From positions 124,001-188,000 of the forward strand of contig NZ_WNXC01000005.1 of assembly GCF_014172405.1 (NCBI RefSeq): a stretch of DNA of 64,000 nt, in the 5' to 3' direction. A program made the translations under genes and the position numbers. Source of the stretch: Pedobacter gandavensis (GTDB taxonomy: Bacteria > Bacteroidota > Bacteroidia > Sphingobacteriales > Sphingobacteriaceae). Numbering within the stretch: the stretch's first letter is position 1; each line of letters starts with the position of its first letter. This document shows, one piece after another, positions 14,033 to 52,800 of this stretch. Under the pieces are notes generated by a model, which saw nothing but the letters and a program-made list of their open reading frames with translations, was not told where the DNA came from and made no database searches.

Positions 14033-14068
14033 AAAAAAACAGCCCTCTAAAAGAAAGGGCTGTTTTTT
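14033..14068 (-). terminator. Terminator of the dsbD-pfkA block
   Basis: A-run, CAGCCCT, loop, AGGGCTG, T-run. The structure is nearly symmetric, so it can act on either strand. It lies 25 bp after the pfkA stop on the minus strand. Confidence 0.88.
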
Positions 14069-14092
14069 TATGATATCATGAGTTTCACTCGA

Positions 14093-15076: not shown

Positions 15077-16781
15077 TTGGTTTTTCAGCGTTTTTAAATT
15101 TATCTAAACCACTTTGTAAATATGCAGCGTACTCCTTTGCGTCAAAAATTGCGCCCTGTGGTTTTACCAAAGGGTTCAGGTCATGGCCTGCCAAAACATA
15201 ATAAGGCTGTGAATTTGAGCCATATTTAGTGGCTTGAAAATCACCGTTCCATCTTCCCAGGTCATCGGTTGTGGTTCTTAATATTTCCGAATAGTGGATT
15301 TTATCTTTAGGCATTTTGATATTTCTCTCATCCACATAAAGCTGGATCAGCACATACTCATCTTTAATCAACCTACCAACTTCTTTATCAATCCAGACTT
15401 TATCTTCCATCTTACGACAGTTCACACAGGCATGACCTGTAAAATCGATTAAAACTGGTTTGTTTACGCTTTTCGCATAGGCTAAACCTTCATCCAGGTC
15501 AAAAAAGGCATTGAATCCTACTGGTGGTTTAAGGGTTTCATTGTATTTTACCGTTGCAGGGAAACCATTGGAAGCTGTTGATGATGCAGCTGAACCATTG
15601 CCACTCAAGATAAAGTCCTGGGTGTTCATTGGTGGTGCAATACCGCTCAGGATATTTACCGGAGCGCCCCATAGGCCTGGAACCAGGTATACTGCAAATG
15701 ATAAAGAGAAGATGGCGAAAAATAATCGCGGTACAGAAACGTAAGGAACGTCACTATCGTGCGAGAATTTGATCTTACCTAACAAATAGATTCCCATCAG
15801 GATAAAGATGATGATCCATAAAGCGAGGAACAACTCACGGTCGAACCATTCCCAATGCCAAACCAGGTCGGCAGCAGAGAGGAATTTTAGTGCCAATGCC
15901 AGTTCCAGGAATCCCAAACACACTTTTACACTGTTCAACCAACCACCAGATTTAGGCATAGAGCTTAAAAATCCAGGGAAGATTGCCGATAGCGTGAAAG
16001 GCAATGCCAGTGCCAATGCGAAACCAAACATCCCGATTGCAGGGGCAAGAATATCACCTTTAGAACTCGCCTGAACCAGAATCGTCCCAATAATTGGTCC
16101 TGTACAAGAGAAGGAAACCAGCGCCAGAGAGGCCGCCATAAAAAATATCCCTCCTAATCCTTTGCTATTGTCTGCTTTTTGGTCGATTTTATTGACAAAC
16201 GAACTTGGCAATGTGATCTCGAAAGCGCCAAAGAAAGAGATGGCGAAGACCACTAACAGGATAAAGAAAAAGAAGTTGAAATAACCGCTAGAGCTCAATT
16301 CATTGAGTTTTGCAGAGCCAAAAAGCAAGGTAATCAATAATCCTAAAGCGACATAAATGACAATAATGGAAACTCCATAGATCAATGCTTGTCCTATTCC
16401 ACCCTGCTTACTTCCCGCTCTTTTAATAAAGTAGCTGACAGTAAGGGGTACCATTGGAAAGATACAAGGCATCAGAAAAGCGATAAATCCACCTAATAAA
16501 CCTGCAATAAACGTCTCCCAAAGTGTTTTATCTACTTCTGCCGGAATTGCCGTACTGGTTGGAGTTTCTACTGCTGTAGATTTCAATACTGCAGTTTCTT
16601 TCTTTACCGTGTCTTTAACGATGTTATTTGCGATGCTATCTTGAGCGGAACCGACTTCAGTAAAAACTAATTCTTCTTCGGCAGCGGCACTATCAGGTTT
16701 TTGTATGGAAGCAAAGCCATTAGAGGTTAAGGCTACGGTAAACAGCAGCATTAAACTCAGCATTAAAAATAATCTCTTCAT
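15069..16781 (-). CDS. dsbD: DsbD-family thiol:disulfide interchange protein (membrane plus thioredoxin part)
   Basis: This 570-residue inner-membrane protein moves electrons from cytoplasmic thioredoxin to periplasmic partners. It has a signal/anchor (1-25) and a Ser/Ala/Thr-rich linker. An 8-TM DsbD/CcdA domain lies at about 88-390, with cysteines in A-F-L-M-P-C-I-F-P-M-V-P and S-F-S-C-T-G-P. A C-terminal thioredoxin-like domain carries C-V-N-C in G-H-A-C-V-N-C-R-K-M. The classical N-terminal substrate-binding domain is missing and appears as the separate gene at 17012-17461. It overlaps pfkA by 8 bp. Confidence 0.93.
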   Translation of the reverse strand: MKRLFLMLSLMLLFTVALTSNGFASIQKPDSAAAEEELVFTEVGSAQDSIANNIVKDTVKKETAVLKSTAVETPTSTAIPAEVDKTLWETFIAGLLGGFIAFLMPCIFPMVPLTVSYFIKRAGSKQGGIGQALIYGVSIIVIYVALGLLITLLFGSAKLNELSSSGYFNFFFFILLVVFAISFFGAFEITLPSSFVNKIDQKADNSKGLGGIFFMAASLALVSFSCTGPIIGTILVQASSKGDILAPAIGMFGFALALALPFTLSAIFPGFLSSMPKSGGWLNSVKVCLGFLELALALKFLSAADLVWHWEWFDRELFLALWIIIFILMGIYLLGKIKFSHDSDVPYVSVPRLFFAIFSLSFAVYLVPGLWGAPVNILSGIAPPMNTQDFILSGNGSAASSTASNGFPATVKYNETLKPPVGFNAFFDLDEGLAYAKSVNKPVLIDFTGHACVNCRKMEDKVWIDKEVGRLIKDEYVLIQLYVDERNIKMPKDKIHYSEILRTTTDDLGRWNGDFQATKYGSNSQPYYVLAGHDLNPLVKPQGAIFDAKEYAAYLQSGLDKFKNAEKPNE

Positions 16782-35956: not shown

Positions 35957-37279
35957 ATGGAAGCAGCAATAATCGCCTTATTGATCATAATTTTAGTAGT
36001 AGTTATCGTATTGTTCTTAAAGAAACCTCTTGCTGGAAACCAGCATATTGCACTCTTGGCTTTAAAAGAGGAAGAGCATCAAAAATCATTAAACTGGTTA
36101 AAAGAAGAGAAATTAAGACTGGAAGATGAGCTGAATGACCTACGTAATAATTTCCTGTTAGAACGTAGTAAAGTCATCAAATCCGAAGAAAGCCTGGTTG
36201 CACAGCGGGAAAAACAGGCAGAACAGGAGTTGTACATTGCTGATCTTCAAACACGTTTCAAATTAGAATTTGAAAACATTGCCAATAAAGTACTGGAAGA
36301 GAAAACAGCAAGATTTACGGAGCAGAACCGGACAAATCTCGATCTCATCCTGAATCCATTCAAAGAAAACATCAAAGCTTTTGAAGAGAAAGTAGAAAAG
36401 GTTTATAAATCGGAATCTGACGAACGCAATATTCTTAAAGGGGTAATTTCACAGCTAATGGATCAGAGTAAACAGATTCAGGAAGATGCGAATAACCTGA
36501 CCAAGGCCCTCAAAGGGGATTCTAAAAAACAGGGAAATTGGGGTGAAGTCATTCTCGAAAGGGTATTGGAACGTTCTGGATTGATCAAAGATAGAGAGTA
36601 TAGGATACAAGCCAATTTAAGCGCTGCGGAAGGGAACAGGATGCAACCAGATGTGATCATTGACCTTCCAGACGATAAACATGTCGTAGTCGATTCTAAG
36701 GTCTCCCTGGTGGCTTACGAGCGATTGGTTACTGCAGAGACTGATTTAGAAAGAGAGACCCATTTGAAACAACATATTCTTTCCATTAAAAACCATATTC
36801 AGGGATTATCTGACAAAAATTACCATGACCTCTACCAGATCAATTCACCTGATTTTGTACTGCTTTTTATTCCTATAGAATCATCCTTTGGTATTGCAGT
36901 ACAGCAAGATGCAGAATTATTCAACTATGCATGGGACAGAAAAGTAGTCCTGGTGAGTCCTTCCACTTTGCTTGCAACTTTGCGCACTATAGCCAGCATA
37001 TGGAAACAGGAAAGACAAAACAGAAATGTATTGGAAATTGCCAGATTGAGTGGCAGTATGTATGATAAGTTTGTTGGGTTTTTAACAGATATGGAGAACA
37101 TCGGGAGAAACATCAGACAAAGTCAAGATGCTTATGATAAAGCCTTAAACAAGCTTTCCACAGGAGCTGGAAACCTCGCAAATACTTCAGAGAAAATCAA
37201 AAAATTAGGTGCCAAAGCAACGAAGCAAATTGACACCAAATTTTTAGATCCTTTAGTTGTAGAAGAGGAGCGCTTATAA
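35957..37279 (+). CDS. rmuC: DNA recombination protein RmuC
   Basis: This 440-residue protein limits inversions at short inverted repeats in E. coli. It has an N-terminal TM helix (about 4-22), a coiled coil (about 35-150), and a predicted PD-(D/E)xK-type nuclease domain. That domain has Q-G-N-W-G-E-V-I-L-E near 195, P-D-V-I-I-D-L-P near 232 and V-V-V-D-S-K-V-S near 244. ATG 35957 places the TM helix at the terminus; the longer frame from 35912 does not. Its stop overlaps the thiL stop by 6 nt. Confidence 0.92.
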   Translation: MEAAIIALLIIILVVVIVLFLKKPLAGNQHIALLALKEEEHQKSLNWLKEEKLRLEDELNDLRNNFLLERSKVIKSEESLVAQREKQAEQELYIADLQTRFKLEFENIANKVLEEKTARFTEQNRTNLDLILNPFKENIKAFEEKVEKVYKSESDERNILKGVISQLMDQSKQIQEDANNLTKALKGDSKKQGNWGEVILERVLERSGLIKDREYRIQANLSAAEGNRMQPDVIIDLPDDKHVVVDSKVSLVAYERLVTAETDLERETHLKQHILSIKNHIQGLSDKNYHDLYQINSPDFVLLFIPIESSFGIAVQQDAELFNYAWDRKVVLVSPSTLLATLRTIASIWKQERQNRNVLEIARLSGSMYDKFVGFLTDMENIGRNIRQSQDAYDKALNKLSTGAGNLANTSEKIKKLGAKATKQIDTKFLDPLVVEEERL

Positions 37280-38314
37280 TTTAAAAGCGTTCCATCCCTG
37301 TGCTTTCAATTCATGAACCACATTGGATTTAGAAATCATTTTACAACCTGAGTTTTTATCGGTAATATGTCCAATAATACTGATGTCTACATCATTTTTT
37401 AGCTTGGTATAATCTGCTTGTTTTATGGTAAAAAGTAATTCGTAATCTTCCCCACCATTCAATGCACAAACAGTTGGATCTAAGCCCAGCTCACGTGCCG
37501 TTTCATAGGTCATCGGGTCAATCGGAATCTTTTCTTCGTACAAAGTACAGCCTTTTTCAGACTGCTGACAGATGTGCATAATCTCTGAAGCAAGGCCATC
37601 AGAAACATCAATCATTGAGGTTGGAATAATTTCCATTTGTGCCAGCAAATCAATGATATCTCTTCTTCCTTCTGGCTTCAGCTGACGTTCAATAATATAA
37701 TCCTTTCCTTCCAGATCAGGCTGAATATTAGGGTTTTCTAAAAATATCTGTTTTTCTCTTTCTAGAATTTGCAAACCTACATAAGCACCACCTAAATCTC
37801 CGGAAACACATAAAAGATCACCCTCCTGGGCACCACTTCTGTACACCACATCTTTTTTATCTGCATAGCCAATACTGGTTACACTGATCACCAAACCCTG
37901 TTTGCTGGAAGAACTATCCCCACCAATCAGGTCAATATTGAATTTATTACAGGCCAATTCAATGCCTTTGTATATTTCTTCTACGGCTTCCAATGGAAAT
38001 TTACTAGAAATTCCGATAGAAACTGTAATCTGAGTAGCGATACCATTCATGGCATAAATGTCACTCAAATTCACTTGAACCGCTTTAAAACCCAAGTGCA
38101 TTAAGGGCACATAAGCCAGGTCAAAATGAATGCCTTCCAGCAATAAATCTGTAGAAATTAATACTTCTTTATCTGGGAAATTCAGTACTGCGGCATCATC
38201 CCCAACCCCTTTAATACTGCTTTCATGTCTGATCTTGAAATTATCAGTCAGGTGTTTTATCAGACCAAATTCTCCAAGTTCTCCGATGTCGGTACGCTCT
38301 TTATTCTCAAACAT
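37274..38314 (-). CDS. thiL: Thiamine-monophosphate kinase
   Basis: This 346-residue enzyme phosphorylates TMP to thiamine pyrophosphate. It has an AIR synthase-like fold. Mg-ATP residues are in V-G-D-D-A-A-V-L at 37-44, then S-T-D-L-L-L-E-G-I-H-F-D, G-G-D-S-S-S near 125, V-S-G-D-L-G-G-A-Y near 165, and I-D-V-S-D-G-L near 240. No other thiamine genes are adjacent. It lies upstream of, and convergent with, rmuC. Confidence 0.94.
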   Translation of the reverse strand: MFENKERTDIGELGEFGLIKHLTDNFKIRHESSIKGVGDDAAVLNFPDKEVLISTDLLLEGIHFDLAYVPLMHLGFKAVQVNLSDIYAMNGIATQITVSIGISSKFPLEAVEEIYKGIELACNKFNIDLIGGDSSSSKQGLVISVTSIGYADKKDVVYRSGAQEGDLLCVSGDLGGAYVGLQILEREKQIFLENPNIQPDLEGKDYIIERQLKPEGRRDIIDLLAQMEIIPTSMIDVSDGLASEIMHICQQSEKGCTLYEEKIPIDPMTYETARELGLDPTVCALNGGEDYELLFTIKQADYTKLKNDVDISIIGHITDKNSGCKMISKSNVVHELKAQGWNAFKL

Positions 38315-38406
38315 ATATTTTATTTCTATTGAGTTTTAACTTTTAATACTTGTTGATTTTCTTTAAAATTCTCCGGAAATCTCCAGAAAAATCCACTATA
38401 TGAAAT

Positions 38407-39399
38407 TTATAAACCCAATGCTGCGGAAATCTCCAGCATTCTTTCAATTGGTTTACGTGCTTGTACTATAATATCCGCAGGAACAGTCACTTCAGGGCTT
38501 CCATTTTTTAAGCATAAATAGAGTTTTTCTAAAGTATTTCTTTTCATATAAGGACAATCATTACAGGCACAGTTATTATTTGGTGGTGCAGGAATAAAAG
38601 TTTTTGTCGGATTTGCTTTCTCCATCTGGTGAATAATCCCACTTTCCGTAGCGACAATAAATTCCTGAGCATCACTATTCGTACTATATTTCAATAATCC
38701 GGTGGTCGATCCAATGTAATCTGCCATTTCCAAAACTGCCTCTTCACATTCCGGGTGGGCAATAAACTTTGCATTCGGATGACGAGCTTTCAATTTCGTA
38801 ATTTTTTCTCTCGAAAAAATCTCATGGACCATACAGGCACCGTTCCAAAGCACTAAATCGCGACCTGTTTTTTTAGCCACCCAAGCACCTAAATTTTTGT
38901 CTGGACCAAAAATGATCTTCGTATCCTTTGGAAGACTTTCTACAATCTGTACCGCATTCGTGGAGGTACAAACAATATCGCTCAAAGCCTTCAATTCGGC
39001 GGTACAATTCACATAGGTAATCACCACATGATCAGGGTACTTTTCTTTGAATTTTTTAAACAGGTGTGGCGGACAACTATCAGCCAACGAACATCCTGCT
39101 TTCAAATCCGGCAACAAAACTTTTTTATCCGGAGAAAGAATCTTTGCCGTTTCTGCCATAAAATGCACTCCTGCAAACACAATCACCTCAGCATCAGTTC
39201 TTGCCGCTTCTTGTGAAAGTCCTAAACTGTCCCCAATATAATCAGCAATATCCTGAATATCAGGCTCTTGGTAGTAGTGCGCCAGCACTATTGCATTTTT
39301 CTCTTTTTTTAGTTTTTCGATTTCCACGAAAAGATCAAGTGTAGGATCAATCTTTTCTTCGACAAAACCTTTTCTATTTAATTCCTCAAATGTATCCAT
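38407..39399 (-). CDS. nadA: Quinolinate synthase
   Basis: This 330-residue [4Fe-4S] enzyme condenses iminoaspartate with DHAP to quinolinate in NAD synthesis. Family features are [10 protein letters not shown] near 40, V-N-C-T-A-E near 110 and G-A-C-M-V-H near 195. The terminal [12 protein letters not shown] also matches; the three conserved cysteines coordinate the cluster. ATG 39399 is taken rather than TTG 39405. It is divergent from nadB across a 400-bp spacer, so the two NAD genes share a control region. Confidence 0.96.
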
Positions 39400-39506
39400 T
39401 TTCAACAGTTCAATAAATTATAATTATTTAATATAGATAGACTTCTATTGTTTATTAGTGTGTTAATAACGTTTGTAAATTATTTTTTTTTAGGCGATTA
39501 TTTGAG

Positions 39507-39641
39507 TTATTCATAAGTTATCCACAATTAAGTTGATTTTTTTAAACAAAAATCCGCTGATTCACAGTATTTTATTTTTCTCTCTCAAAACTTATCCATA
39601 GTAATATGTGTATTGTTAGTTTGTGTGTAAAAAGTGGATAA
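39507..39641. other. DnaA-box cluster, candidate chromosomal origin oriC
   Basis: In the AT-rich nadA-nadB spacer are six matches to TTATNCACA with at most one mismatch. Plus strand: 39507 TTATTCATA, 39518 TTATCCACA (perfect), 39558 TGATTCACA and 39592 TTATCCATA. Minus strand: 39622-39630 TTACACACA and 39633-39641 TTATCCACT. The outer pairs are each spaced 11 bp start to start and face opposite ways. AT-rich flanks (39420-39500 and 39660-39750) could unwind. A perfect parS lies 6 kb away. Under uniform base composition I estimate about 0.1 such matches by chance in 135 bp, two strands. Origin function is inferred. Confidence 0.6.
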
Positions 39642-39799
39642 CCTCTGCAAAGTTGCTCAAAAATAACTGAAAATATTGTGGCAAATTCCCTTTTTAGCTT
39701 AGCTTTAAACATTCAAATTTATTTGTTCTATATGTTTAGACAAGAAATTAACAATTATATCAACGTTGTTAACAAAGTAAGGGAAGTAGCTTAATTTCA

Positions 39800-41386
39800 A
39801 TGAGAAAAGTAGATTTTTTAGTAATAGGGTCGGGTATAGCGGGTTTAAGCTTTGCATTAAAAGCAGCTCAGCATGGTAAAGTTTTAATTGTTACAAAATC
39901 AAATGAAGATGAGTCAAATACAAAATATGCGCAGGGTGGAGTAGCAGTTGTTGTGGATAAAGATGATTCGTTTGAAAAACATATTGAAGATACATTAATT
40001 GCTGGAGATGGGCTGTGTGACAGAGAGATAGTAGAAATAGTTGTCAAAGAAGGGCCTCAGCGAATTCAAGAAATTATAGATTATGGGATCAATTTTGATA
40101 AAAATCAAACCGGAGTTTACGATTTAGCGAAAGAAGGTGGGCACTCAGAAAATCGTGTTTTACACTATAAAGATGTCACCGGATACGAAATTGAAAGTGT
40201 TTTATTAAAGCAGATTCATGAGAACGAAAACATAGAGATATTAACACATTACTTCTGTTTGGAGTTAATTACTCAGCATCATTTGGGTGTTCATGTGGAT
40301 AAGAGTTCAGAAGATATCCACTGTTACGGCATATATGCCTTTAACACAGAGCGTAATGATGTGGAAAAGATACTAGCTAGTGTGACTATCTTAGCCTCGG
40401 GAGGCGCAGGGCATGTGTATAGCAGTACAACAAATCCAATAATTGCCACGGGCGACGGAATGGCAATGGTATACCGGGCAAAAGGGAAAGTTAGAAATAT
40501 GGAATTTATTCAGTTTCATCCTACCGCATTGTATCACCCAGGAGAATATCCGGCATTTCTGATCTCTGAGGCCGTTCGTGGTTATGGCGGAGTGCTCAAA
40601 AGAAAGAATGGAGAAGAATTCATGTATGAATATGATGCCAGGGGATCTTTGGCTTCCAGGGATATTGTGGCTCGTGCGATAGATTCTGAAATGAAAAAAT
40701 CTGGGGAGGACTTTGTCTACCTTGACATCACCAATCGAAAAAAGAGTGATATTTTAGCTCATTTCCCGAACATTTACGCCAAGTGTCTATCTATAGGTAT
40801 AGACATGACGAAGGATTTAATACCGGTTACGCCTGCAGCTCATTATATGTGCGGTGGAATTTTGGTAGATGAATACGGGCGATCTTCTATAAAAAATTTA
40901 TATGCTTGTGGTGAATGTTCTTCAACAGGTTTACATGGCGCCAATCGTTTGGCTTCAAATTCCTTGTTAGAAGCGCCAGTGTTTGCACATCGTATATATG
41001 AAGATGCTATAGCTACTTTCGAAAATACGGTGATCCCTGATGACATCCCAGAATGGAACGACGATGGGGTGAAACAATCTGATGAGGATATTTTAGTCAC
41101 ACATAATTTAAGGGAAACTCAGAAATTAATGAGCGATTATGTTGGAATTGTTCGTTCCGATTTTAGATTGGATCGTGCAATGAGGCGATTGTTTTTGCTT
41201 CATGAAGAGACCGAAGCCTTTTATAAAGCCAATAAAGTTTCCGTGAAATTGTGTGAATTGCGGAATGTGATCCAGGTAGCTTTCTTGATTATTAAGTCTG
41301 CAAAAGCAAGAAAAGAGAGTAGGGGATTACACTATACAACTGATTATCCAGTACACGCAGAAGAATTAACAGATACAATTTTTTAG
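39800..41386 (+). CDS. nadB: L-aspartate oxidase
   Basis: This 528-residue flavoenzyme makes iminoaspartate for NadA. The FAD-binding GSGIAG lies at 10-15, followed by S-N-T-K-Y-A-Q-G-G-V-A near 48. Q-F-H-P-T-A-L-Y-H near 240, the active-site region R-G-Y-G-G near 260 and H-G-A-N-R-L-A-S-N-S-L-L-E near 375 also match. A C-terminal three-helix domain is present. It resembles SdhA but has the NadB-specific terminal domain. The carbonic anhydrase-like gene follows 3 bp after the stop. Confidence 0.95.
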   Translation: MRKVDFLVIGSGIAGLSFALKAAQHGKVLIVTKSNEDESNTKYAQGGVAVVVDKDDSFEKHIEDTLIAGDGLCDREIVEIVVKEGPQRIQEIIDYGINFDKNQTGVYDLAKEGGHSENRVLHYKDVTGYEIESVLLKQIHENENIEILTHYFCLELITQHHLGVHVDKSSEDIHCYGIYAFNTERNDVEKILASVTILASGGAGHVYSSTTNPIIATGDGMAMVYRAKGKVRNMEFIQFHPTALYHPGEYPAFLISEAVRGYGGVLKRKNGEEFMYEYDARGSLASRDIVARAIDSEMKKSGEDFVYLDITNRKKSDILAHFPNIYAKCLSIGIDMTKDLIPVTPAAHYMCGGILVDEYGRSSIKNLYACGECSSTGLHGANRLASNSLLEAPVFAHRIYEDAIATFENTVIPDDIPEWNDDGVKQSDEDILVTHNLRETQKLMSDYVGIVRSDFRLDRAMRRLFLLHEETEAFYKANKVSVKLCELRNVIQVAFLIIKSAKARKESRGLHYTTDYPVHAEELTDTIF

Positions 41387-41389
41387 ATT

Positions 41390-41899
41390 ATGCCAGTTAT
41401 ATTACCAGTGAAAGATAAGCACCCTCAATGGGGTGAAAATTGTTTTATAGCGCCAAATGCGACGATTGTTGGCGAAGTATCCATGGGCAGTAACTGTTCT
41501 GTCTGGTTTAATGCTGTGATCCGTGGTGATGTTAATCGCATTACAATTGGTAACGATAGCAATATTCAAGATGGGGCTGTGATTCATGCGACGTATTTAA
41601 AAGCGGCAACAGTGATTGGAAATAGAGTTTCTGTTGGACACAATGCGATTGTTCATGGCTGTGTTTTAAAAGACCATATACTGATCGGTATGGGCGCAAT
41701 TGTGATGGATAATGCAATCGTAGAAGATTATTGTATTATTGCCGCAGGCGCAGTTGTATTAGAGCATACACACTGTGAGTCAGGCTATATCTATGCTGGT
41801 ACACCTGCAAAAAAAATAAAGCCCATTACTGAAGAGCAACGGGCTTTATTGAATAAATTACCAGATAACTATATTATGTATGCTGACTGGTTTAAATAA
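41390..41899 (+). CDS. Gamma-class carbonic anhydrase-like protein
   Basis: This 169-residue left-handed beta-helix protein is built of hexapeptide repeats. The three zinc-binding histidines of gamma-carbonic anhydrases are at H66, H84 and H89, and R45/D47 are in V-I-R-G-D-V. The terminal segment Y-A-G-T-P-A-K-K-I-K is typical of the YrdA/PaaY subgroup, in which activity varies. It starts 3 bp after nadB and is probably co-transcribed, although no metabolic link is obvious. Confidence 0.9.
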   Translation: MPVILPVKDKHPQWGENCFIAPNATIVGEVSMGSNCSVWFNAVIRGDVNRITIGNDSNIQDGAVIHATYLKAATVIGNRVSVGHNAIVHGCVLKDHILIGMGAIVMDNAIVEDYCIIAAGAVVLEHTHCESGYIYAGTPAKKIKPITEEQRALLNKLPDNYIMYADWFK

Positions 41900-41913
41900 A
41901 TAGTTTTAAAGAC

Positions 41914-43542
41914 TTATTCTTTTGGAATTTTAATGGTTTCATTTCGTTCCCAAAGGGCTCTAATGGAGAGTTCTTTGGGTTCGTTCCAAATTTTCTCGGG
42001 TTGACGCCCATCAGTCACACTTCCAGTATCCCATTTTTTGTTTTTGTTATTGTCGTAGGTAATCCTTGTAAAGTATTTACCAGCTTTATAATTGTTAAAT
42101 TTGACGGTGGTATCTTTGGTAACCACTATCGTATTTACCGGATTCTTATTCTCATCAATTACTTCTACGATGTAACTTTTATTCTGCTCAGGAACGATCA
42201 GTTTTAGAATTAAAGTTCCATAATCATCCTTATTACCTAATTTGAAATCCTTGGTAAATTCCTTATTTTTTGTGTTGAAGATAGCATTAAAAGTACCTGC
42301 TTCAAACTTCATTTCATAGGATTTTTTAACTCGCCAAGGGTACTTTACATAGTAGGATAGAAAGTCGGTGCTATCTTTTTCCAAGGTAAAGTTGGTTCTT
42401 TTTACGGAATCTTCCAGCAATTGGATCTTAGCGATATCAGTACTTAAAATAGGAAAATTGAAAGTTAATTTTAATGGTTTGTTAGGATTTAGTACACCAC
42501 TTTCGAAGTTATCCGTTGCGTTCAAAACTCTAGTATAGGTTTCTTTTTTCCCCCTGAGTAATGTTGTGGTTTGCAATAATTTTCCGTTTTCTTTGAGGCT
42601 GATTTTTGTTGAATCGAAGCTCATGTCTGTCAACCACATTTTCAAAGAGTCGTTGTTTTTACTGAACTTGATATATTTTTTTGCATCTAAGGCTGCAGGT
42701 TCCACTACATTCACTTCTGGTTTTTGTAGTTTTTGATTAAAAGCAAAACTGATACTTCCATCAGCATTGATGCGTTTATCTAAAATTCGGAAGACTGTTG
42801 CTTCTTCTTTGAAGACTTTAATATTTACGGAGTCCATAGTTTTTTTTAGGACGATCGGCTCTTTAATAAAACCAATTTCATCTGTACTCTGCTGATAAAT
42901 TTTGTCTCCGCCTTTTTCTTTTAATGCATAGATTTTGTAGGTTCCTTCTCTTAAATTATTCAGACTGTAGTGACCACTGCTATCAGTTAATGAATAAATG
43001 GATGGTCTTGCTTTTCCAAAGATCGTATCTTTTTCCAAGGGGAGGATAAATGCTACTGCTTCAATTTCTGGTTCACCGGTTACGGCATTTGTGACCTTGC
43101 CTTTGATGCTTAAGGAATCGAGTTTTGGACCTGTTGAAAATACATAAGAGAAATTCTTTAGGATGTTGTTTTCGTTGATATCCGCGATCAACTTCCCGAA
43201 GTTCATGGTATAGGTTGTGTTTTTTTCCAAAGTGTCTGGGAACGAAATCTCCAGTAATTTCTTTTTCACTTTTAACAAAGGTGCAACCTTTAATTCTGGA
43301 GAGATAGAAAATTCTTTAGACTCATTTTGTAGCTTGAAGTATTCATCAAATTCAATGGTGATTTTCTTGGCCTTGAAATTTGTCGTAAGATTTTTAGGCT
43401 CCATACTCAACACCTTAGGCGGCTCCGTATCTCGGGGACCTCCTTGTGGTTGTTGTATGCTCGCACAGCTATATATTAATGAAGTTAGCAATAGGAGGGA
43501 TGCAAAAAGCCTGAAGTTCGGTATAATGCTATTATTGGCCAT
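41914..43542 (-). CDS. Ig-like domain lipoprotein
   Basis: This 542-residue lipoprotein has signal peptide and lipobox S-L-I-Y-S-C with lipidated C26. An N-terminal Big_5/SbsA-type Ig-like domain (about 35-130) includes G-G-P-R-D-T-E-P-P-K-V, a common Bacteroidota opening. A carboxypeptidase-regulatory-like beta domain (about 140-225, G-H-Y-S-L-N-N-L-R-E-G-T-Y-K-I) and further beta-rich regions follow, with D-N-N-K-N-K-K-W-D-T-G near the end. It is probably an outer-membrane surface or periplasmic structural lipoprotein. It is convergent with the carbonic anhydrase gene, 14 bp between stops. Confidence 0.82.
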   Translation of the reverse strand: MANNSIIPNFRLFASLLLLTSLIYSCASIQQPQGGPRDTEPPKVLSMEPKNLTTNFKAKKITIEFDEYFKLQNESKEFSISPELKVAPLLKVKKKLLEISFPDTLEKNTTYTMNFGKLIADINENNILKNFSYVFSTGPKLDSLSIKGKVTNAVTGEPEIEAVAFILPLEKDTIFGKARPSIYSLTDSSGHYSLNNLREGTYKIYALKEKGGDKIYQQSTDEIGFIKEPIVLKKTMDSVNIKVFKEEATVFRILDKRINADGSISFAFNQKLQKPEVNVVEPAALDAKKYIKFSKNNDSLKMWLTDMSFDSTKISLKENGKLLQTTTLLRGKKETYTRVLNATDNFESGVLNPNKPLKLTFNFPILSTDIAKIQLLEDSVKRTNFTLEKDSTDFLSYYVKYPWRVKKSYEMKFEAGTFNAIFNTKNKEFTKDFKLGNKDDYGTLILKLIVPEQNKSYIVEVIDENKNPVNTIVVTKDTTVKFNNYKAGKYFTRITYDNNKNKKWDTGSVTDGRQPEKIWNEPKELSIRALWERNETIKIPKE

Positions 43543-43685
43543 TTATATGCGCTGTGTTAAGTTTATTACTCTTTTTAATAGATATCATTAAAGAATTTTA
43601 AAAGTCGCTTAAAACTCATTTAAACGAGCCAGCTAGATTTCATCAGAATGTAAATGTAACTAGCTCGTTATCAATTAGTTGTGTT

Positions 43686-45548
43686 TTATTTACTCATGTG
43701 CACCATTAAAACGGAGATATCAGAAGGAGAAACTCCTGAAATTCTTGAAGCCTGGCCTAATGTGCGGGGTTTGATCTTCAATAGCTTCTCTCTCGCTTCT
43801 TTTGATAAGGATCCAAGTTGAGCATAATCAAAATCTGGATTGATGTCTTTGTCTTCCATCTTCTGCATTTTATTTACAATTTCTTGTTCCTTCTCAAAAT
43901 AGCTTTCATATTTAATTTTGATTTCCGCCTGTTCTATTGTCTCTTTATCAAATGCAGCAAGGTAATCTTTAAATGGTGTACTGATCTCACGTATGTCTTC
44001 AATGCCGACCTGAGGTCTGCCCAGTAAACTCACTATTTTTACATTTTGAGTTAGCGTGCTTGTACCTAGTTCTTCCAGTTTTGCATTGGCTTCGGCCATG
44101 TCAATACTTTGCTTTTTAGCAAAGGCAACGATGGCATCAGAGTTGGCAACTTTCTGTTTAACGAGGTCCAAACGTTCGTCACTAATCAATCCCAACTGAT
44201 GGCCGATAGGAGAGAGACGGATGTCTGCATTGTCTTGGCGAAGTAGTAACCTATGCTCTGCTCTTGAAGTAAACATACGGTAAGGTTCGTCTGTTCCTTT
44301 GGTCACCAAATCATCAATCAATACCCCTATATAAGATTCAGAACGCTTCATGATTAATTCATGTAAATCATTCACTTTTTGATGTGCATTGATACCTGCA
44401 ATAAAGCCCTGACTGGCGGCTTCTTCATAACCGGTAGTTCCGTTGATTTGACCAGCGAAGAATAGGTTGCTGATCATTTTCGTTTCTAAGGTTAGAGAAA
44501 GTTGAGTAGGTGGAAAATAGTCGTATTCGATCGCATAACCTGGGCGGAACATTTTAGCGTTTTCAAATCCAGGGATTTTAGTGAGCGCTCTATATTGTAC
44601 ATCCTCTGGTAAAGAAGTTGAGAAACCATTTACATAAATTTCACAGGTATGTAAACCTTCTGGTTCCACAAATATTTGATGTCTTTCTCTTTCTGCAAAG
44701 CGATTAATCTTGTCTTCGATAGAAGGGCAATACCTCGGACCTAAGCCTTTAATTCTTCCGGTAAACATCGGAGATTTTTCGAATCCTTCTTTTAAGGTTT
44801 CATGAACTTCTGCATTGGTATAGGTAATCCAGCAGCAACGTTGTTCTGTAGGACGCTCCACATTGGTGTAGGAAAAACGACCGGGATTTTCATCGCCCCA
44901 TTGTTCTTCCATGACAGGATAATTTAAAGACCTTCCATCCACTCGGGGTGGGGTACCAGTTTTCATTCTACCCGCTTCAAAACCTAACTCTACTAATTGT
45001 TCGGTTAGGCCTGTTGCCGATCTCTCCGCAGTTCTACCACCACCAAATTTCTTTTCTCCAATATGAATCAATCCATTTAGGAAAGTTCCATTTGTTAAAA
45101 CCACCGACTTTCCTTTGATCTCAATTCCTAAAGAAGTTTTAACTCCAACAACAGTATTGTTTTTTAGGAGTAAGCTGCTCACCATATCCTGCCAGAAATC
45201 CACATTAGGCGTGCGCTCTAAGGCTAGTCTCCATTCTTCAGCAAATCTCTTCCTGTCATTTTGTGCTCTTGGACTCCACATCGCGGGACCTTTAGAAAGA
45301 TTCAGCATTCTAAATTGTAGTGTGGTCTTGTCACTGATGATTCCAGAGTAGCCACCCATCGCATCGATCTCTCTTACGATCTGGCCTTTTGCCACACCAC
45401 CCATAGCAGGGTTGCAACTCATCTGTGCAATGGTTTCCATATTCATGGTGATCAGTAAGACTGAAGATCCCAGATTGGCAGCAGCAGCAGCGGCTTCACA
45501 ACCGGCATGTCCGGCACCAACTACTATAACATCGTATTCTTTAAACAT
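43686..45548 (-). CDS. mnmG: tRNA uridine-5-carboxymethylaminomethyl modification enzyme MnmG
   Basis: This 620-residue FAD protein, with MnmE, modifies wobble U34. FAD motif G-A-G-H-A-G is at 11-16, with C-N-P-A-M-G-G and the MnmG signature G-G-x-R-T-A-E-R-S near 150. [13 protein letters not shown] near 270-282 and the C-terminal MnmE-binding helical domain also match. mnmG (gidA) often lies beside the replication origin in bacteria. Here a perfect parS and a weaker copy are 30-90 bp upstream of its start. Confidence 0.97.
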
Positions 45549-45577
45549 TACCTGTTGTTTTTATATCGCTTAAATTT

Positions 45578-45593
45578 TGTTTCACGTGGAACG
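45578..45593. other. Degenerate parS (ParB-binding) site
   Basis: TGTTTCACGTGGAACG matches the parS consensus at 14 of 16 positions and keeps the central TTCACGTG core. It lies 30 bp upstream of the mnmG start. Confidence 0.6.
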
Positions 45594-45620
45594 CAGTAAA
45601 TGCCCGCTGTTAAGCTCGGA

Positions 45621-45636
45621 TGTTTCACGTGAAACA
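45621..45636. other. Perfect parS (ParB-binding) site
   Basis: TGTTTCACGTGAAACA is a 16/16 match to the widely conserved chromosomal parS palindrome first defined for B. subtilis Spo0J. It is 43 bp from the weaker copy. No parA or parB gene is visible in this window. Confidence 0.85.
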
Positions 45637-46947
45637 ATAGGTTAAAATTAATCATTTAATAGTGGAGACACGCTAATTCATGCTCCTTTTTATTGTTTCT
45701 TTTTTTGCTCAGCTTCATTTATCTATTGAAGGAAGAGCAGCCTTCCTTATTAATAGGGGGCGGATTTTATTTATTCAATAGCTATAAAACACTTGGTATT
45801 CAAACCAGAGCAGCCTTTATCTAAAATCAGTATTCAATTTAAAGCATCACTTTAAATGATGCCTACTTTGTTGTTTTTATTTTAATGTAGAACGCTAGGT
45901 TCCACGGTATATTTTTAAAGATGGAATCAGCAATTTCTGGGCTAATCCTGGAGTTTACTGGGTATCCAAATATTCTTTTTTTAGATTGGGCGAAGGTCTT
46001 TTTCCTATTTATCAAAAGGTTCTTGGCTCAAAGATCTTGGCTTTTATTCCTTTTTTTCGGGGGTATTTGATTGCTGTAAATCTGTGAAACAAGGAAGGGC
46101 CATCTGTGATACATCTTAGTTTACGGCTAATATTTTAAGGAATTTCATCGAAATATCTAAGCCTGATTCTGGTTGTTTCTTCATCGGTGATTTAGTTTTG
46201 TACGCCACATATATTACACTACTGATTACAAAACCTCGATTATGCAAACGATTTTTTTTGTTTCTGTTGACACCTTAGTTCTTGCTTTTTTAACTTTAGA
46301 ACTTTGGAATCCCTGACTTTGGATTCTGTCTTTAGCCAGCTCAAGCATTTGTTTTTAGCTTGCTATTCTTTATTTTTTTAGAAGAAAGCTTTTGCTGATC
46401 GGCAATTCCAAGGCTTAGTTTTTTGCATCATGAACTGTAATGAGCACCTAATTCCATTCTATTTTCATTTTAATTGTTACCAATTTTGTGGCAAAATAGG
46501 AGCTGGAATTTTCAATTGTTTGTCGGATTCAGGTTTCAAATTACAGGTCTTTATTGCTGTTATTAATATCAATATTGCTATTGTAAAAGAAACGGATCTG
46601 ATTTGTCGCGATATCCAATAGCAGAAAAATTCCGGATTCAAATGTGTAGCTCATGAAATTATCATTCCTTTAAATCGAGAAATAAAGCTTTTATTCTTTT
46701 ATTTCTAGTCACAACCGAAAGGTAAAATCACCGTTGTTATTTAGCTATTAAAAATGAGAAAGAACATTTTGTTGTTTTTTGAAAGTATCAGGAGGGAGGG
46801 CTTATGGCAATCAAACCTGATGAATTTCTTATTTATAATTCTCAATTGTATACTGTTTGTTGAGAATTTTTCCTCCTGAAAGGAGTGGCTGATCAATCTG
46901 TCCCCACCTAAATCTTTATAAGATCAGGCGGGGATAATTGGTATTGC
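45637..46947. other. Long gene-free region next to parS
   Basis: About 1.3 kb, AT-rich, with no gene I can support. Two overlapping short open frames near 45910-46090 and a 63-codon frame at 46430-46621 have no family resemblance or clear start signals. A stem-loop at 46901-46934 near the ABC-F stop has a 9-bp outer stem and an inner ATCTT/AAGAT stem. I found no perfect DnaA box here. Confidence 0.5.
46901..46934 (-). terminator. Hairpin after the ABC-F gene, possible terminator
   Basis: The GC-rich outer arms (TCCCCGCCT/AGGTGGGGA on the minus strand) begin 14 bp after the stop. No T-run follows, so termination would be weak or factor-assisted. Confidence 0.5.
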
Positions 46948-48810
46948 TTATAGCTCGGATAATGTTAACCAGCGTTCAGTAACTTTTTCTAATTCCTGAT
47001 TTAAGCCTTCAATAGTTTTAGAAACATCCTGTATTTTGTTGTAATCTGCACTATCTATAGTCAATAAAGAGTTACTCAATTCCTGGATTTTTGCTTCTAG
47101 TTCAGCAATCTTCAGTTCCGAATCTTCCAGTTCTTTTTGCTCTTTAAAAGACAATTTTTTAGCAGGTATTGCTGCCGTATTTTGAACAGGCTGCTCCTTT
47201 GCTTTTGCTGGTGTTTTTTCTTTAGGGGTCTCTAAACTGATTCTATATTCAGAGTAATTACCATTGTAAATTCCAACTTCTCCATTGCCTTCCATGATGA
47301 ACAATTGCTCACTCATTTTGTCTAGCAGATACCTATCGTGTGATACCAGAATTAACACACCAGGGAAGTTCTCTAAGAACTCTTCCAATACATTTAAAGT
47401 ATCAATATCAAGGTCGTTTGTAGGCTCATCCAGGATTAAGAAATTAGGATTTTGCATCAATACTTTCATCAGGTGTAATCGCTTCTTTTCACCACCACTT
47501 AACTTCTCCACCATGCCATGTTGTTTCTTAGGAGGGAAGAGGAACAGGGTCAATAGTTGCGAAGCAGAGATCGTTTGACCGTCGGCCATTTTGATATATT
47601 CAGCATCTGATTTTACGATATCAATTACTCTTTCTTTCTCATTGAAAGCCAAGCCGCCTTGTTTATAGTAACCATAAACAGTCGTCTCACCGGTACTCAC
47701 TTTTCCTTTTTCAGGCGTTAAGTGGCCGGTAATGATATTCAATAAAGTAGATTTTCCGGTACCATTCTTACCTGCAAGTCCGATACGGTCTGCACGCTTA
47801 AAGGTATAGCTGAAGTCATTAATGATTGGTTTATCATCAAAAGACTGGCCGATATGGTCCAGTTCCAGGATTTTATTCCCTTGACGTGCCATTTTAACAT
47901 TCAAAGTAACACTTTGATTATCAGATCTTTGTTTAGTTTTACTTTCCAGGTCATAAAAAGCATCAATACGGGATTGAGACTTTGTAGTACGCGCAGCAGG
48001 CATTCTTCTCATCCATTCCAGTTCCTTTTTTAAAAGGTTCTTGTTTTTCTGAAAAGTACTCTCATCAGCCATTTCACGCTCAGATTTCTTCTCTAAGAAG
48101 TAAGCATAATTGCCGTTATAATTATAGATTTTTCCTCTGTCCAACTCTACGATTGTATTACAGACGTTGTCTAAAAAGTACCTGTCGTGTGTAACTAATA
48201 ATATAGTTTTGTTTCCGGAAGTCAATAGTTTCTCCAGCCATTCGATGGTGTCAATGTCCAAATGATTGGTTGGCTCATCTAACACATAGATTTCAGGGTC
48301 TTCTATCAGGAGTTTTGCAAGCGCGAGACGCTTTTTCTGCCCACCAGATAGGGTAGAGATCTGTTGTTGCAAATGAGTGATTCCCATACGGCTTAAAATC
48401 GTTTTAATTTCATGCTCATATTCCCAGGCATTGTGTTCGCTTAATTCCTCATATAAGCGATTCAGTGTTTTTTCATCTGGGTTTGGATCTTCAATCAGTT
48501 CCTCATATTCTTTGATCAGTTGCTGCTGTTTGTTTTCCGTAGAGAAAATGAAATCACTAATAGAGTGACCGTCTGGAAAAGAAGGTTCCTGATCCAGGAA
48601 GCCTATTTTAACAGATTTATTCTTTACGATTTTACCTTCCAAAGGATTAAACCTTTCGGCAAGTAATTTCAGTAGGGTGCTTTTTCCGGCACCGTTTATA
48701 CCAACCAACGCTACGCGCTGTCCAGGTTGAATCCCCAGGGTCAAATTTTTAAATAGCCATTCATCATGGTAAGCATGGCCTAAGTTTTCGGCTGCAATTA
48801 GTGTACTCAA
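46948..48810 (-). CDS. ABC-F family ATPase (Uup-like)
   Basis: This 620-residue soluble protein has two ABC domains and no membrane segments. Walker A GINGAGKS lies at 37-44, with signature L-S-G-G-Q-K-K-R near 155. The second copy has G-K-N-G-T-G-K-S near 349 and L-S-G-G-E-K-K-R near 440. The C-terminal 90 residues are a charged coiled coil as in Uup, which binds DNA or ribosomes. ABC-F proteins act on ribosomes. The only plausible start is TTG at 48810: the upstream frame meets a stop four codons earlier. A -7 box lies at 48849-48856. Confidence 0.93.
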   Translation of the reverse strand: MSTLIAAENLGHAYHDEWLFKNLTLGIQPGQRVALVGINGAGKSTLLKLLAERFNPLEGKIVKNKSVKIGFLDQEPSFPDGHSISDFIFSTENKQQQLIKEYEELIEDPNPDEKTLNRLYEELSEHNAWEYEHEIKTILSRMGITHLQQQISTLSGGQKKRLALAKLLIEDPEIYVLDEPTNHLDIDTIEWLEKLLTSGNKTILLVTHDRYFLDNVCNTIVELDRGKIYNYNGNYAYFLEKKSEREMADESTFQKNKNLLKKELEWMRRMPAARTTKSQSRIDAFYDLESKTKQRSDNQSVTLNVKMARQGNKILELDHIGQSFDDKPIINDFSYTFKRADRIGLAGKNGTGKSTLLNIITGHLTPEKGKVSTGETTVYGYYKQGGLAFNEKERVIDIVKSDAEYIKMADGQTISASQLLTLFLFPPKKQHGMVEKLSGGEKKRLHLMKVLMQNPNFLILDEPTNDLDIDTLNVLEEFLENFPGVLILVSHDRYLLDKMSEQLFIMEGNGEVGIYNGNYSEYRISLETPKEKTPAKAKEQPVQNTAAIPAKKLSFKEQKELEDSELKIAELEAKIQELSNSLLTIDSADYNKIQDVSKTIEGLNQELEKVTERWLTLSEL

Positions 48811-48848
48811 AGTCTGTGTTTAACGATATTTTATGTATGAAATTAGTG

Positions 48849-48856
48849 CAAAAGTA
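48849..48856 (-). promoter_or_regulatory. -7 box (TACTTTTG) of the ABC-F gene
   Basis: It is a minus-strand TAnnTTTG match 38 bp upstream of the TTG start. Confidence 0.5.
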
Positions 48857-49100
48857 AGCAATAATTCTTAGGTATATAGTTGAGCCTATTGAAGATGTAA
48901 TGATTTGCTCCTTTAAAAATCAACGGATTGGGCTTAAAGGATTCCGGATATGGCGCTGATTACGGTATGGCTTTTTGCTTAGGGACATCCAGAAAGCTTA
49001 AGAAAAGGGGAGTCCCTTGGACTGGCTCCATTTGGAAATTGGGTATTTAAGAAGTAGGGTTACAGGTAAGTCAGTAGTAAACGATGACGGGTAATGTCTT

Positions 49101-49118
49101 GTTTTTAGCGCTAAAAAC
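49101..49118. repeat. 18-bp perfect palindrome
   Basis: GTTTTTAGCGCTAAAAAC reads identically on both strands. It lies alone in the ABC-F to ybeY spacer, 16 bp beyond the end of the small peptide frame. It could be a dimeric regulator's operator; it has no terminator-type T tail. Confidence 0.5.
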
Positions 49119-49133
49119 GGGAGATTAGGCAGC

Positions 49134-49253
49134 CTATTTTCTGGTATGTGTTAAAGTCACGCTTTTTTCGACAGGCTTCATTCCAAATTTGGTTCCGGTA
49201 AGGATCACGATGGCTACGGAGCCGATCAGTAATTTTTTAAGCACATTATTCAT
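49134..49253 (-). CDS. Possible 39-residue membrane peptide
   Basis: Between the ABC-F gene and ybeY is a short frame of 39 codons, ATG at 49253 to TAG at 49134. It is laid out like a small membrane peptide: a Lys-containing N-terminus (MNNVLKKL), a hydrophobic run (LIGSVAIVILTG), then a basic tail. A CAGGAAATC sequence precedes the ATG, and TATCTCTG, one mismatch from TAnnTTTG, lies further upstream. No family is recognised. The 615-bp spacer otherwise shows only the palindrome at 49101-49118. Confidence 0.4.
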   Translation of the reverse strand: MNNVLKKLLIGSVAIVILTGTKFGMKPVEKSVTLTHTRK

Positions 49254-49425
49254 GATTTCCTGGTTTTAGGCGTTCGTAAAATCTTTCAGAGATAAGACGT
49301 AATTGCCTAAGAAACGTTTCAATAAATTGACGTTCATTAGACCATCTGTGTTTAAATTTCGACGAACAGTCGTAAATTACCTATCAACAGTTTGTACTAA
49401 AATTGCATTAGAGATTATAAAATGA

Positions 49426-49872
49426 CTATAGCGTGGATTCCATCACTTTAAATAAGGAAAGAGACTCATCTTCTTTGGCAGTCATCAATGTTTTAGCCGC
49501 TTTACCTTTATCTTTATAACCCAAAAGGTGTAAGGTGCCATGAGCCATGACGCGGTATAATTCGTCTGCTACGGTATGCTTAAATATTTTTGCGTTTTCC
49601 TGAATTCGCTCCAAGCTGATAAAAATGTCACCAACAATCATTTTAAGCTCCTCTGAGTTATCAAAAGTTATCACATCAGTATAGGTGTCATGATCAAGGT
49701 ATTCTTGGTTTATACGCAGTAAATATTCGTCTGAGCACAAAATAAAGTTCAATTCCTGTAACGAATAACCTTCTTTTTCAATGATCGCCTTAATCCAGGC
49801 CTTTAGCAAGGTTTTCTTTTTAAGGGTATAACTAAGGTCTTCGGTGAAAAAATGAACTGCTGCTTTTGCCAT
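49426..49872 (-). CDS. ybeY: Endoribonuclease YbeY (16S rRNA maturation)
   Basis: This 148-residue UPF0054 protein is involved in 16S rRNA 3' processing and ribosome quality control. The core motif is H-G-T-L-H-L-L-G-Y-K-D near 111-121. The first two zinc-binding His are present. The third position, His in E. coli (G-Y-D-H), is Asp here (G-Y-K-D), which I believe is usual in Bacteroidota. D-T-Y-T-D-V-I-T-F-D lies near 60. It follows the DUF4175-like gene by 12 bp and is probably in the same operon. Confidence 0.92.
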   Translation of the reverse strand: MAKAAVHFFTEDLSYTLKKKTLLKAWIKAIIEKEGYSLQELNFILCSDEYLLRINQEYLDHDTYTDVITFDNSEELKMIVGDIFISLERIQENAKIFKHTVADELYRVMAHGTLHLLGYKDKGKAAKTLMTAKEDESLSLFKVMESTL

Positions 49873-49884
49873 TTGTATATAGAA

Positions 49885-52800
49885 TTATTGGGTCAAATTT
49901 AGCAATTTAAAATATTCCGCAATTTTATTTTTATAATAGTAGTTCAGGCTGGGCGGTAATTTTTGAATCCATTCGGACTCATTCTTTTGATTTTTACGGA
50001 ATTTTTCCAGCATCTGCTGATAAGAAGGAGGTAGGTCTTTACCAGCTTTACTTTCTCTTTTTGAATCCTGGTCCTGCTCTCGTTTGGCATCATTTGCATC
50101 CAGCAGTTTCGTTAACAAGTCTTTCTGGCGGTTCAGCGTTTCTTGTTCCAGGCGCTTATTCACCAGGTCGGTCTCTGTGGCCTTCATGTCCTTGATCATT
50201 TGATTCAGGTTACCCAATCCGGACTTACCATCTTTATTTTCCTCGCTATTGATTTTTTGCAAGGCTTCTCGAATCATTTGCTGCTGCTGAGCCATTTTAG
50301 CAAATTCTTCAGACATCTGACCCTTTGGAACAGTGCCTTTATTCCCTGATTTTTGCAGTTGATCTTTCGCTTTTTGCATGCTGTTATTGAGTTGCTGTTG
50401 CATTTGTTGCAACTGCTTCATGCTTTGTTTTTTCCCTTTACCACCACCACTGGAGTTTTTCATCATCTTTTGGAGTTGTTCGAGTGCTTCATTGAGCATT
50501 AGTGATAAATTATTGATGGAGGTCATGGTGTATTGCTGGTTCTTGTTTGCAGCAGCAGTATTTCTTTCGCCAAGGTTATCCAAGCTTTTATCCATATTAA
50601 AGTTGATCTTTTGAAGCTCGTCAGTTACTGTGCTTTCAATCTGTGGAACTCTTTTGCTTAGAGAAGACAAGCTATCCGCAATGGTCTTCATATTGTCTTT
50701 GATCGCCCTTTGTTCTTGTACATTGGCGGTGTAAAGCGGGTCATTACTACTTAGTTTCTTCAAACTCAGCATTACCTTTTCCTGATCAAATGAAGTTCTC
50801 AGCAGATTTTCCAGTAATTGCCGCAGCTCTTGAACGTTCAGGTTATTCTCCATTTCCGCAGATTGTTGTTGCATTTCGTCCATCTTTTTGGCCATCTTCT
50901 CTAGCTGATCTGCTGCATTCTGTTGGTTTTCAGCGGCCTTCTTACGGTCGTTTTTATCCAGGTTGTCTTTACTCTCTTTTTGCTGCTGTTGAATGTTTTT
51001 ACGCTCCTTTTCAGGGTTTTCGAATGGATTTGGTCGTTCTAGCTGCTCATTTTTTTCTTGAAGACTTTTCAATTCTTTTTGAACATCTTCAAAAGTCCTA
51101 CGTTGCTCCTCTTGCTGTTGTTTCAAGTCGCCAGTTGGTTTTTTTTGATCTTTGCTTTGCTGAGAAAGGGATTTCTGAGCTTTGGCGAGTTCCTTTAGCC
51201 GATCAATGTTGTTTTGCAGATTTTGTTCAAATTCCAATTGCTTGTAAAGCTCCAGGATACGATCGAGCTCATTTTTTAGAGATTTATTATCGACTTGCAT
51301 CTTGGAAAGTTCTTGCTGCGTCTGGTCTTTGTTGTTTTGATCCATCAAATTTTGCAGCTTTTCCAGTAATGCCTTGGTTTTATCGTCTAACACGTTTTTA
51401 AAAAGCTCATCGATTTGCTTTTGTTTTTCCAGCAGCTCATCCTTTACTGCAGCATGCTCTTCTTTTTCAAAATTGTTCTTATCATTCAGCTGTTTGAGTG
51501 ATTTAACCGTTTCTTCCAACTGCTTTTGCTTGTCCACTAACTGCTGGATTTGCTTTTTATCGTCGAAGGTCAGCGTTTTTTTATCCAGTAGCGCAGCACC
51601 CAGCTTTTTACTTTCTTTTTCTACTGTGCCAGCTAGTTTGATGGCCTGATCCATTTTCTGTTTGACTGCCTGACTACCTTGATTTATTTTTTCTGCGACC
51701 TGTTGTGCTGTTGGGAGCTCATAGGTTTTTATCGCAGATTTGGCAGTTTTAGGCCCGTTTACACCATCATTATCTGCTACTTCAAAGTAATATTCCAACT
51801 GCTGACCAGGCTTGATTGCGGCCTGACTGAGGTCCCAGTAGAAGAAAAATGCGTTCTCCAGTTGTGCTTTTTTCACTGGAATGGATTGGCTTACCTTGTT
51901 TGTTACTTTTCCATTTTCAGTGACGATATAGCTGAATTTTAATGAGCTAAAGCCATGGTCATCAGTTATTTTTCCAGAAAAATATAGCGCTTTACTACTT
52001 ATAGAATCCGGCGATTCAGACACCGCGATATTTGGGTATTCATCTGCTATGATGCCAATTTGATGTACCAGGGAATCAGTTCCTCCAGCAAAAATGCTAT
52101 TTTTTGGACTCAGGTGGTATTCTCCACTCTTTCGTAAAGTGCTTTTAACTGTAAAAATATTGTTTTTAGAACGCAGCACTTGTGCTTTCTTATCCAATAT
52201 AAAAACCAACTCATCGCTGTTTGCCGTGGTTAATTTCCATGTGACAGCGGTGCCATCTGGCAACAACAGATCACCTGCATTGGAAACGGTCTCCGCCTTT
52301 TTACCCAGATATGCAGGATAATGAAGTTCGGCTGTCATGGCTACAATTGATGGACGTGGCTTCACTTCAATCACATAAGGTAGCGAGTTGAACCCAGCTG
52401 CAGCAAAGTGGATTTCCTTATTCTTTTGAAGGTTTTTGAAAGTATATTGAAAGGTCGTTGCGTCCTTCTTTTCGAGTTTATAGGTATTCAATCCATCAGA
52501 TATATAAACCTCTTGTGGGATCTCATTTCCCGTGATTTTAAGGTTCAAGGTCAAGTCATCTCCTTGCGCACAAACTAGTTTTTCATTGAGCAACTTAAAA
52601 TTAAAGGGGGCTTTTTGCAAAATCTGTTTATTGTACTGTACAAAACTACTGGTACCTTCTTTCAATATTGCAGGGGCAATAATGGCAATCAAAACGATGA
52701 TGCTCAATGGGAATAGGGAATATCGCAGGTATTTTTTATTTTCATTGAGGCGGATAGCACTGCTAAATGGAATGGGCTTCAGCTCATTGATCTTTTGATC

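Follow-up and report, generated by a model that had tools for sequence, protein, structure and literature searches.

The 394-bp spacer between the divergent genes nadA and nadB (39406–39799) is, judged from its sequence, very probably the chromosomal origin of replication (oriC) of the soil bacterium Pedobacter gandavensis; the origin probably also takes in the ~570 bp at the start of nadB. An earlier note had proposed a candidate oriC for a cluster of DnaA boxes at this place, and the proposal is supported by box enrichment, kept box positions, low duplex stability, linkage to parS and a nearby change in GC skew. Related bacteria appear to share the site. The window, i.e. the whole stretch of 64,000 nucleotides that was analysed, comprises positions 124001–188000 of contig C17 in a 5.59-Mb genome of 21 contigs; in the coordinates of that contig the spacer lies at 163,406–163,799.

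The flanking genes had been named nadA and nadB from the letters alone, and the Pfam and NCBIfam profiles agree (Table 1). Both genes point away from the spacer that they share, and among named NadB proteins the closest, at 93% identity, comes from Pedobacter sp. ok626. The gap between mnmG and an ABC-F gene (45549–46947) contains a pair of parS sites and no ORF of at least 120 amino acids. A tRNA scan of the whole window returned zero tRNAs, and an Rfam search of 37000–50000 gave zero matches at the gathering score. For comparison, 80 nadB loci were divided into the 24 nearest (L031–L053 and L076; NadB identity 75–93%) and the other 56. The nadA-spacer-nadB order is present in 23/24 of the nearest loci, the remaining one ending at a contig edge, and a parS (≤2 mismatches) lies upstream of mnmG in all 20 of those with an uncut mnmG start, L043, L045, L046 and L050 being excluded from this count as their contigs end before or in mnmG. 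A divergent nadA is absent from the available flanks, some of them short, of the other 56 loci; in one of these (L088) nadA is adjacent and co-directional.

Table 1. Coordinates of genes, DnaA boxes and parS sites at the candidate origin (positions in the window).
Feature	Position	Strand	Evidence or remark
nadA, quinolinate synthase	38407..39405	-	PF02445, TIGR00550
AT-rich spacer of the divergent genes nadA and nadB, candidate oriC core	39406..39799 (394 bp)	.	24.9% G+C
Conserved block adjoining nadA, three box-like 9-mers (39449, 39461, 39470)	39449..39478	-	62%, 46% and 68% of the aligned spacers have a box-like site
Two-mismatch box TTATTCATA	39507..39515	+	11 bp ahead of perfect box
Perfect DnaA box TTATCCACA, best kept box position	39518..39526	+	box-like in 25/28 aligned spacers
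One-mismatch DnaA box TTATCCATA	39592..39600	+	box-like in 11/29 spacers
Box-like site, kept position	39607..39615	-	box-like in 38% of spacers, unbiased position scan
One-mismatch DnaA box TTATCCACT	39633..39641	-	box-like in 14/29 spacers
Weak box TTGTTAACA, second best kept position	39766..39774	+	box-like in 24/29 spacers, TTATCCACA in 2
nadB, L-aspartate oxidase	39800..41386	+	TIGR00551 and NF006567, above cut-off
Perfect DnaA box in nadB	39952..39960	-	box scan
Perfect DnaA box in nadB	40294..40302	-	box scan
One-mismatch DnaA box in nadB	40360..40368	-	box scan
mnmG (gidA)	43686..45548	-	TIGR00136, PF01134
Second parS, two mismatches to TGTTTCACGTGAAACA	45578..45593	+	consensus scan; overlooked in the earlier note
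Perfect parS, only exact parS in the 5.59-Mb genome	45621..45636	+	consensus scan

The cluster described in the earlier note, within 39507–39641, is present, though its counts by mismatch class were wrong and the boxes within nadB and the second parS had been overlooked. The one perfect box that it reported was found, on the plus strand at 39518; in place of its five one-mismatch boxes there are two, along with four boxes that carry two mismatches, at 39507 (+), 39558 (+), 39622 (-) and 39624 (-), the last two overlapping. The two opposed pairs with 11-bp spacing exist as positions (39507/39518 on the plus strand and 39622/39633 on the minus strand), but each includes a two-mismatch member. 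The excess over chance that was claimed for the cluster holds for the spacer, with three boxes of at most one mismatch against a shuffle mean of 0.1, rather than for the whole window (24 against 19.7 expected).

In what follows, sites matching TTATCCACA with at most one mismatch are termed canonical and those matching TTATNNACA with at most one mismatch box-like. Both were counted in 29 spacers of 240–598 bp, namely that of the window, those of the 24 nearest named loci and those of four further genomes (G108, G071, G052 and G058). The 29 spacers contain 41 canonical boxes against 4.2 in dinucleotide shuffles (largest of 200 shuffles, 11). Their box-like sites number 355 against 162 (largest of 200, 200), a test that is not blind for the named loci since the TTATNNACA pattern was derived from their alignment. 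The four further genomes were absent from that alignment; with 0.32–0.80 Mb of each scanned, only 1–4 of 6,272–15,680 400-bp segments match the box-like count of the spacer, the spacer included. Three segments do so in 767 kb of the genome under study, at the spacer and at C15:290.

The comparison of the spacer across relatives that the earlier note had called for thus found both the gene order and a concentration of box-like repeats. In 23 of 25 loci (5–30 kb each) it is the spacer that contains the densest 400-bp segment, the exceptions being L035 and L046, of which the latter includes only 240 bp of spacer. Within 8 kb on either side of the nadB start, the same 25 loci average 13.0 box-like sites per 500 bp in the spacer, 4.4 in the first bin of nadB and 1.7–3.8 in the other bins, an approximately four-fold peak. 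Canonical boxes extend into the gene, with means of 1.42 for the spacer bin, 1.52 for the 500 bp at the start of nadB and 0.0–0.48 elsewhere. At the other 56 Bacteroidota nadB loci there is no box-like peak (2.8 sites in the spacer bin), and canonical boxes average 0.04 in the first 500 bp of nadB.

Within the spacer the sites occupy kept positions. The frequencies listed in Table 1 for 39518 and 39766 compare with a median of 0 across the 698 combinations of position and strand, and the next best kept positions (39470, 39449, 39633, 39461, 39607 and 39592) are box-like in 38–68% of spacers. The letters found at 39518 in relatives are TTACTAACA (11), TTATTAACA (5), TTATCCACA (4), TTATCAACA (2) and others; those at 39766 are TTGTTAACA (8), TTATTAACA (7), TTATCAACA (4), TTATCCACA (2) and others, so that the relatives' boxes at kept positions are mostly TTAYYAACA-like. 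A position that is kept while its middle letters vary is what one expects of a binding site. Loss of the boxes in close relatives that retain the nadA-nadB arrangement had been named as an outcome that would refute an origin here. Taken literally such loss was found, a canonical box being absent from 6/29 spacers because the middle letters vary at the kept positions; these six nevertheless hold 8–14 TTATNNACA-like sites, and we therefore read the difference as a change of box sequence and not as loss.

The canonical sequence alone was rejected as a genome-wide criterion, both for its absence from these six spacers and for the denser clusters that occur elsewhere. A canonical count of three is attained by 44 of 15,169 400-bp segments in 767 kb of the genome under study, and the spacer's canonical count of one is reached by hundreds of segments in each of G071, G052 and G058. 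It was also considered whether the boxes within nadB prove that silent sites are under selection. Among 25 well-kept NadB valine columns, Val52, Val188 and Val166 rank first, third and fourth in GTG use, a ranking that counts as weak because the columns were picked where boxes lie.

The perfect parS reported 6 kb from the cluster was confirmed and, with the second site at 45578, forms the genome's only parS sites with at most one mismatch to TGTTYCACGTGRAACA; both are upstream of mnmG. A survey of 22 genomes (the one under study, 12 mixed genomes and nine single-contig genomes of the same genus) revealed 35 exact parS sites in 18 genomes, all 35 within ~9 kb of nadA. One-mismatch sites occur elsewhere too in several genomes, and G142 has a one-mismatch site near nadA and no exact one. 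G147, G016 and G052 possess nadA with no parS (≤1 mismatch) near it, where parS may have diverged or been lost; G052 still has the skew change.

Full-length dnaA is far from nadA in 9/12 genomes. The three others (G142, G147 and G016), in which it lies 5–10 kb from nadA, are the three tested genomes of genus g16, where the classical origin neighbours are together. Nearby parS sites and an adjacent dnaA often accompany a bacterial oriC, though neither is needed. No dnaA lies beside the candidate origin in the genome under study, both of its dnaA genes being on other contigs (C18, L009:970–2403, and C3, L010:1087–2517). These are full-length, encode proteins of 477 and 476 amino acids that are 84% identical, and have a perfect DnaA box ~165 bp upstream of each. 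Both proteins contain GGRDHSTVIYA, which we take to be close to the box-reading signature of DnaA. Two or three strong matches to the DnaA C-terminal domain, in open frames of at least 477 amino acids, were seen in 16/60 genomes of the genus; of such multiple frames, the two of the genome under study were translated.

GC skew, a check suggested in the earlier note, speaks in favour of the origin proposed there. A change of sign near nadA was found on the contig itself and in 4/4 relatives, but the resolution is ~20–110 kb and the minimum on the contig is 21.5 kb away from the spacer. Along the 360 kb of C17 the cumulative skew drops to a minimum at 141,971 and then climbs, the spacer sitting in a nearly flat part of the curve, and a single change-point is fitted better at 142 kb than at 163 kb. 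In the relatives, skew was taken from sampled stretches and not from complete curves. G108, a single contig of 4.64 Mb sampled in 40 stretches of 20 kb, is negative between 2.07 and 3.60 Mb and turns positive at 3.68 Mb, with nadA at 3.569 Mb; the three stretches over and beside nadA remain weakly negative. The opposite change falls between ~1.04 and 1.38 Mb, and the point half a chromosome from nadA is 1.25 Mb; against this trend, skew is positive in two stretches, at 1.84 and 1.96 Mb, and slightly negative in one, at 0.81 Mb. In G071 (same genus), G052 and G058 the sign changes within ~20–40 kb of nadA, the first stretches past nadA being near zero in G071 and G058, and the skew of G052 looking unbalanced further out. 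Skew places the origin in the neighbourhood of nadA, not to the base pair.

A rival reading puts the origin nearby but outside the spacer, for example in the 1.4-kb parS-bearing gap that separates mnmG from the ABC-F gene, or at the skew minimum ~20 kb further left. The position of that minimum speaks for such a site, as do published predictions at mnmG in two Flavobacteriaceae. However, the 1,399-bp mnmG gap has no canonical box, its 10 TTATNNACA-like sites are about background, and no 400-bp segment of C17 outside the spacer attains the spacer's TTATNNACA-like count. We regard an origin in the neighbourhood but outside the spacer as unlikely.

The AT-richness noted earlier was upheld, and the lowest-G+C 394-bp stretches of the window are all located in this place. 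In the 360 kb of C17 examined, the spacer ranks first for instability among 400-bp segments and second among 200-bp ones; it again ranks first at 400 bp in a 20-kb piece of G071, which is not the case in the 20-kb pieces of G108, G052 and G058. The block at 39449–39478 is a candidate unwinding element or weak-box array. The part of the spacer query that matches across genera is its opening ~80 bases, with 20 of the 23 non-self rows beginning within the first 21. A simple scan of the spacer for at least three TAG/TAA triplets gave no DnaA-trios, the pattern described in the excerpt of PMC8287927 being looser; that source presents a run of DnaA-trios close to a box as the basal unwinding system.

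That the best kept cross-genus DNA adjoins nadA is also what a promoter or leader would lead one to expect. The spacer might accordingly be a mere divergent promoter or regulator region of nadA and nadB, two genes that do point away from it, and its boxes due to chance or to regulation. We consider this very unlikely, as it leaves unexplained why exact parS sites occur only nearby, why the skew changes here and why canonical boxes lie within nadB.

Other dense box clusters were observed in the genome. At C15:290486–290853 (L028) one strand carries eight boxes that differ from TTATCCACA at no more than one base, all within ~370 bp. This cluster, which has the 3' end of a ribonucleotide reductase gene on one side and the start of a carbon-nitrogen hydrolase gene on the other, could be a DnaA reservoir or control site. 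At C16:337901–338130 (L027), between convergent genes, there are five boxes with at most one mismatch on the same strand, four of them perfect, and 2 kb beyond, inside an HlyD-like gene, a facing pair of perfect boxes (340136–340158). Both clusters are denser in canonical boxes than the spacer.

DnaA reservoir or control sites are known under the names datA and DARS. The existence of dense clusters at non-origin places means that clusters need not be origins, and the spacer could by analogy be a datA- or DARS-like site close to the origin. Such sites need no AT-richness, easy melting or tie to parS or skew, and no better origin candidate was found nearby; we hold this to be exceedingly improbable. 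There is equally little probability that the origin is one of the two denser clusters on C15 and C16, whose eight and five boxes are each on one strand, since the skew sampled to either side of them is negative (9/9 and 9/10 stretches, respectively) and neither contig has a parS within one mismatch of the degenerate consensus.

Taking the spacer as the origin, on the basis of its box content, kept positions, low stability, parS linkage and skew, we infer how binding, melting, firing and segregation might proceed. DnaA would first bind a small number of strong sites, those at 39518, 39592 and 39633 together with the perfect boxes inside nadB, and then occupy the weaker TTAYYAACA-like boxes at their ordered positions. 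This assembly would melt the AT-rich spacer, perhaps at the conserved block adjoining nadA, and the helicase would be loaded. Two forks would then depart in opposite directions, each co-directional with the first gene it enters, nadA or nadB, while ParB on the parS pair 6 kb away would aid the segregation of the new origins.

An oriC of the Escherichia coli type adjoins gidA/mnmG. The candidate resembles it in having few strong and many weak DnaA boxes, an AT-rich part and mnmG nearby, and differs in its TTAYYAACA-like weak boxes, its nadA and nadB flanks and the parS pair in its vicinity. A gidA-mioC context is described for the origin of Yersinia pestis (PMC10225481, excerpt), and the same source states that Ori-Finder 2022 uses skew, boxes and indicator genes. 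Within Bacteroidetes, oriC is commonly far from dnaA, and dnaA beside it uncommon, according to the excerpt of PMC4755523. The predicted origin of Prevotella intermedia OMA14 in that excerpt is likewise a DnaA-box cluster at a skew transition with dnaA elsewhere; its gene context is different, and nadA, nadB and parS go unmentioned there. Excerpts on Mariniflexile litorale (PMC11278836) and Algorimicrobium (PMC12843772), both Flavobacteriaceae, report Ori-Finder origins at mnmG, with claimed agreement of GC skew and, in M. litorale, dnaA not at the origin, although a figure legend in PMC11278836 calls mnmG ter and so contradicts its own text. These share the mnmG neighbourhood with the present case, in which mnmG is 4 kb from the boxes and the genes on either side of them are nadA and nadB. 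For Pedobacter sp. Hv1 the excerpt of PMC4683228 gives an Ori-Finder oriC of 447 bp; the genus name is the same and the length near that of the spacers here (240–598 bp), and as the comparison is by length, with no gene context reported in the excerpt, it is a candidate for the same site only.

Among the literature matches listed, seen as excerpts, no origin between nadA and nadB is described; DoriC lies outside this coverage and may hold predictions here. The sole joint match listed for oriC, nadA, nadB and DnaA is a Propionibacterium genome. An excerpt of PMC5850607 uses DoriC positions and mentions none for this family, and one of PMC13342612 cautions against errors in part of the DoriC entries. 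Reports of origins remote from dnaA, or at mnmG, already exist for Bacteroidetes; the nadA-nadB spacer is very probably a real origin, at a location undescribed among the matches listed.

A further idea, which we offer tentatively and think rather doubtful, is a coupling of the origin to NAD synthesis, whereby DnaA assembly would repress or time nadA and nadB, so that initiation would gate the supply of NAD. It arises because DnaA boxes fill the upstream region shared by the two genes and extend into nadB. Bacterial DNA ligase requires NAD. Were the coupling true, the kept order of nadA, origin and nadB would be held by regulation and not by chance.

For this group, whose origins are usually just predicted by software, the spacer offers a concrete place to study the start of replication, and in the form of a ~400-bp to 1-kb fragment a candidate for origin plasmids in Pedobacter-like bacteria. 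The dnaA gene, by comparison, is a misleading landmark: in G108, G052 and G058 it sits no more than 1 kb from where the record begins, and the origin as placed by skew is 0.7–1.5 Mb away. The kept positions at which the TTATCCACA and TTAYYAACA types alternate would provide a natural series on the evolution of box strength.
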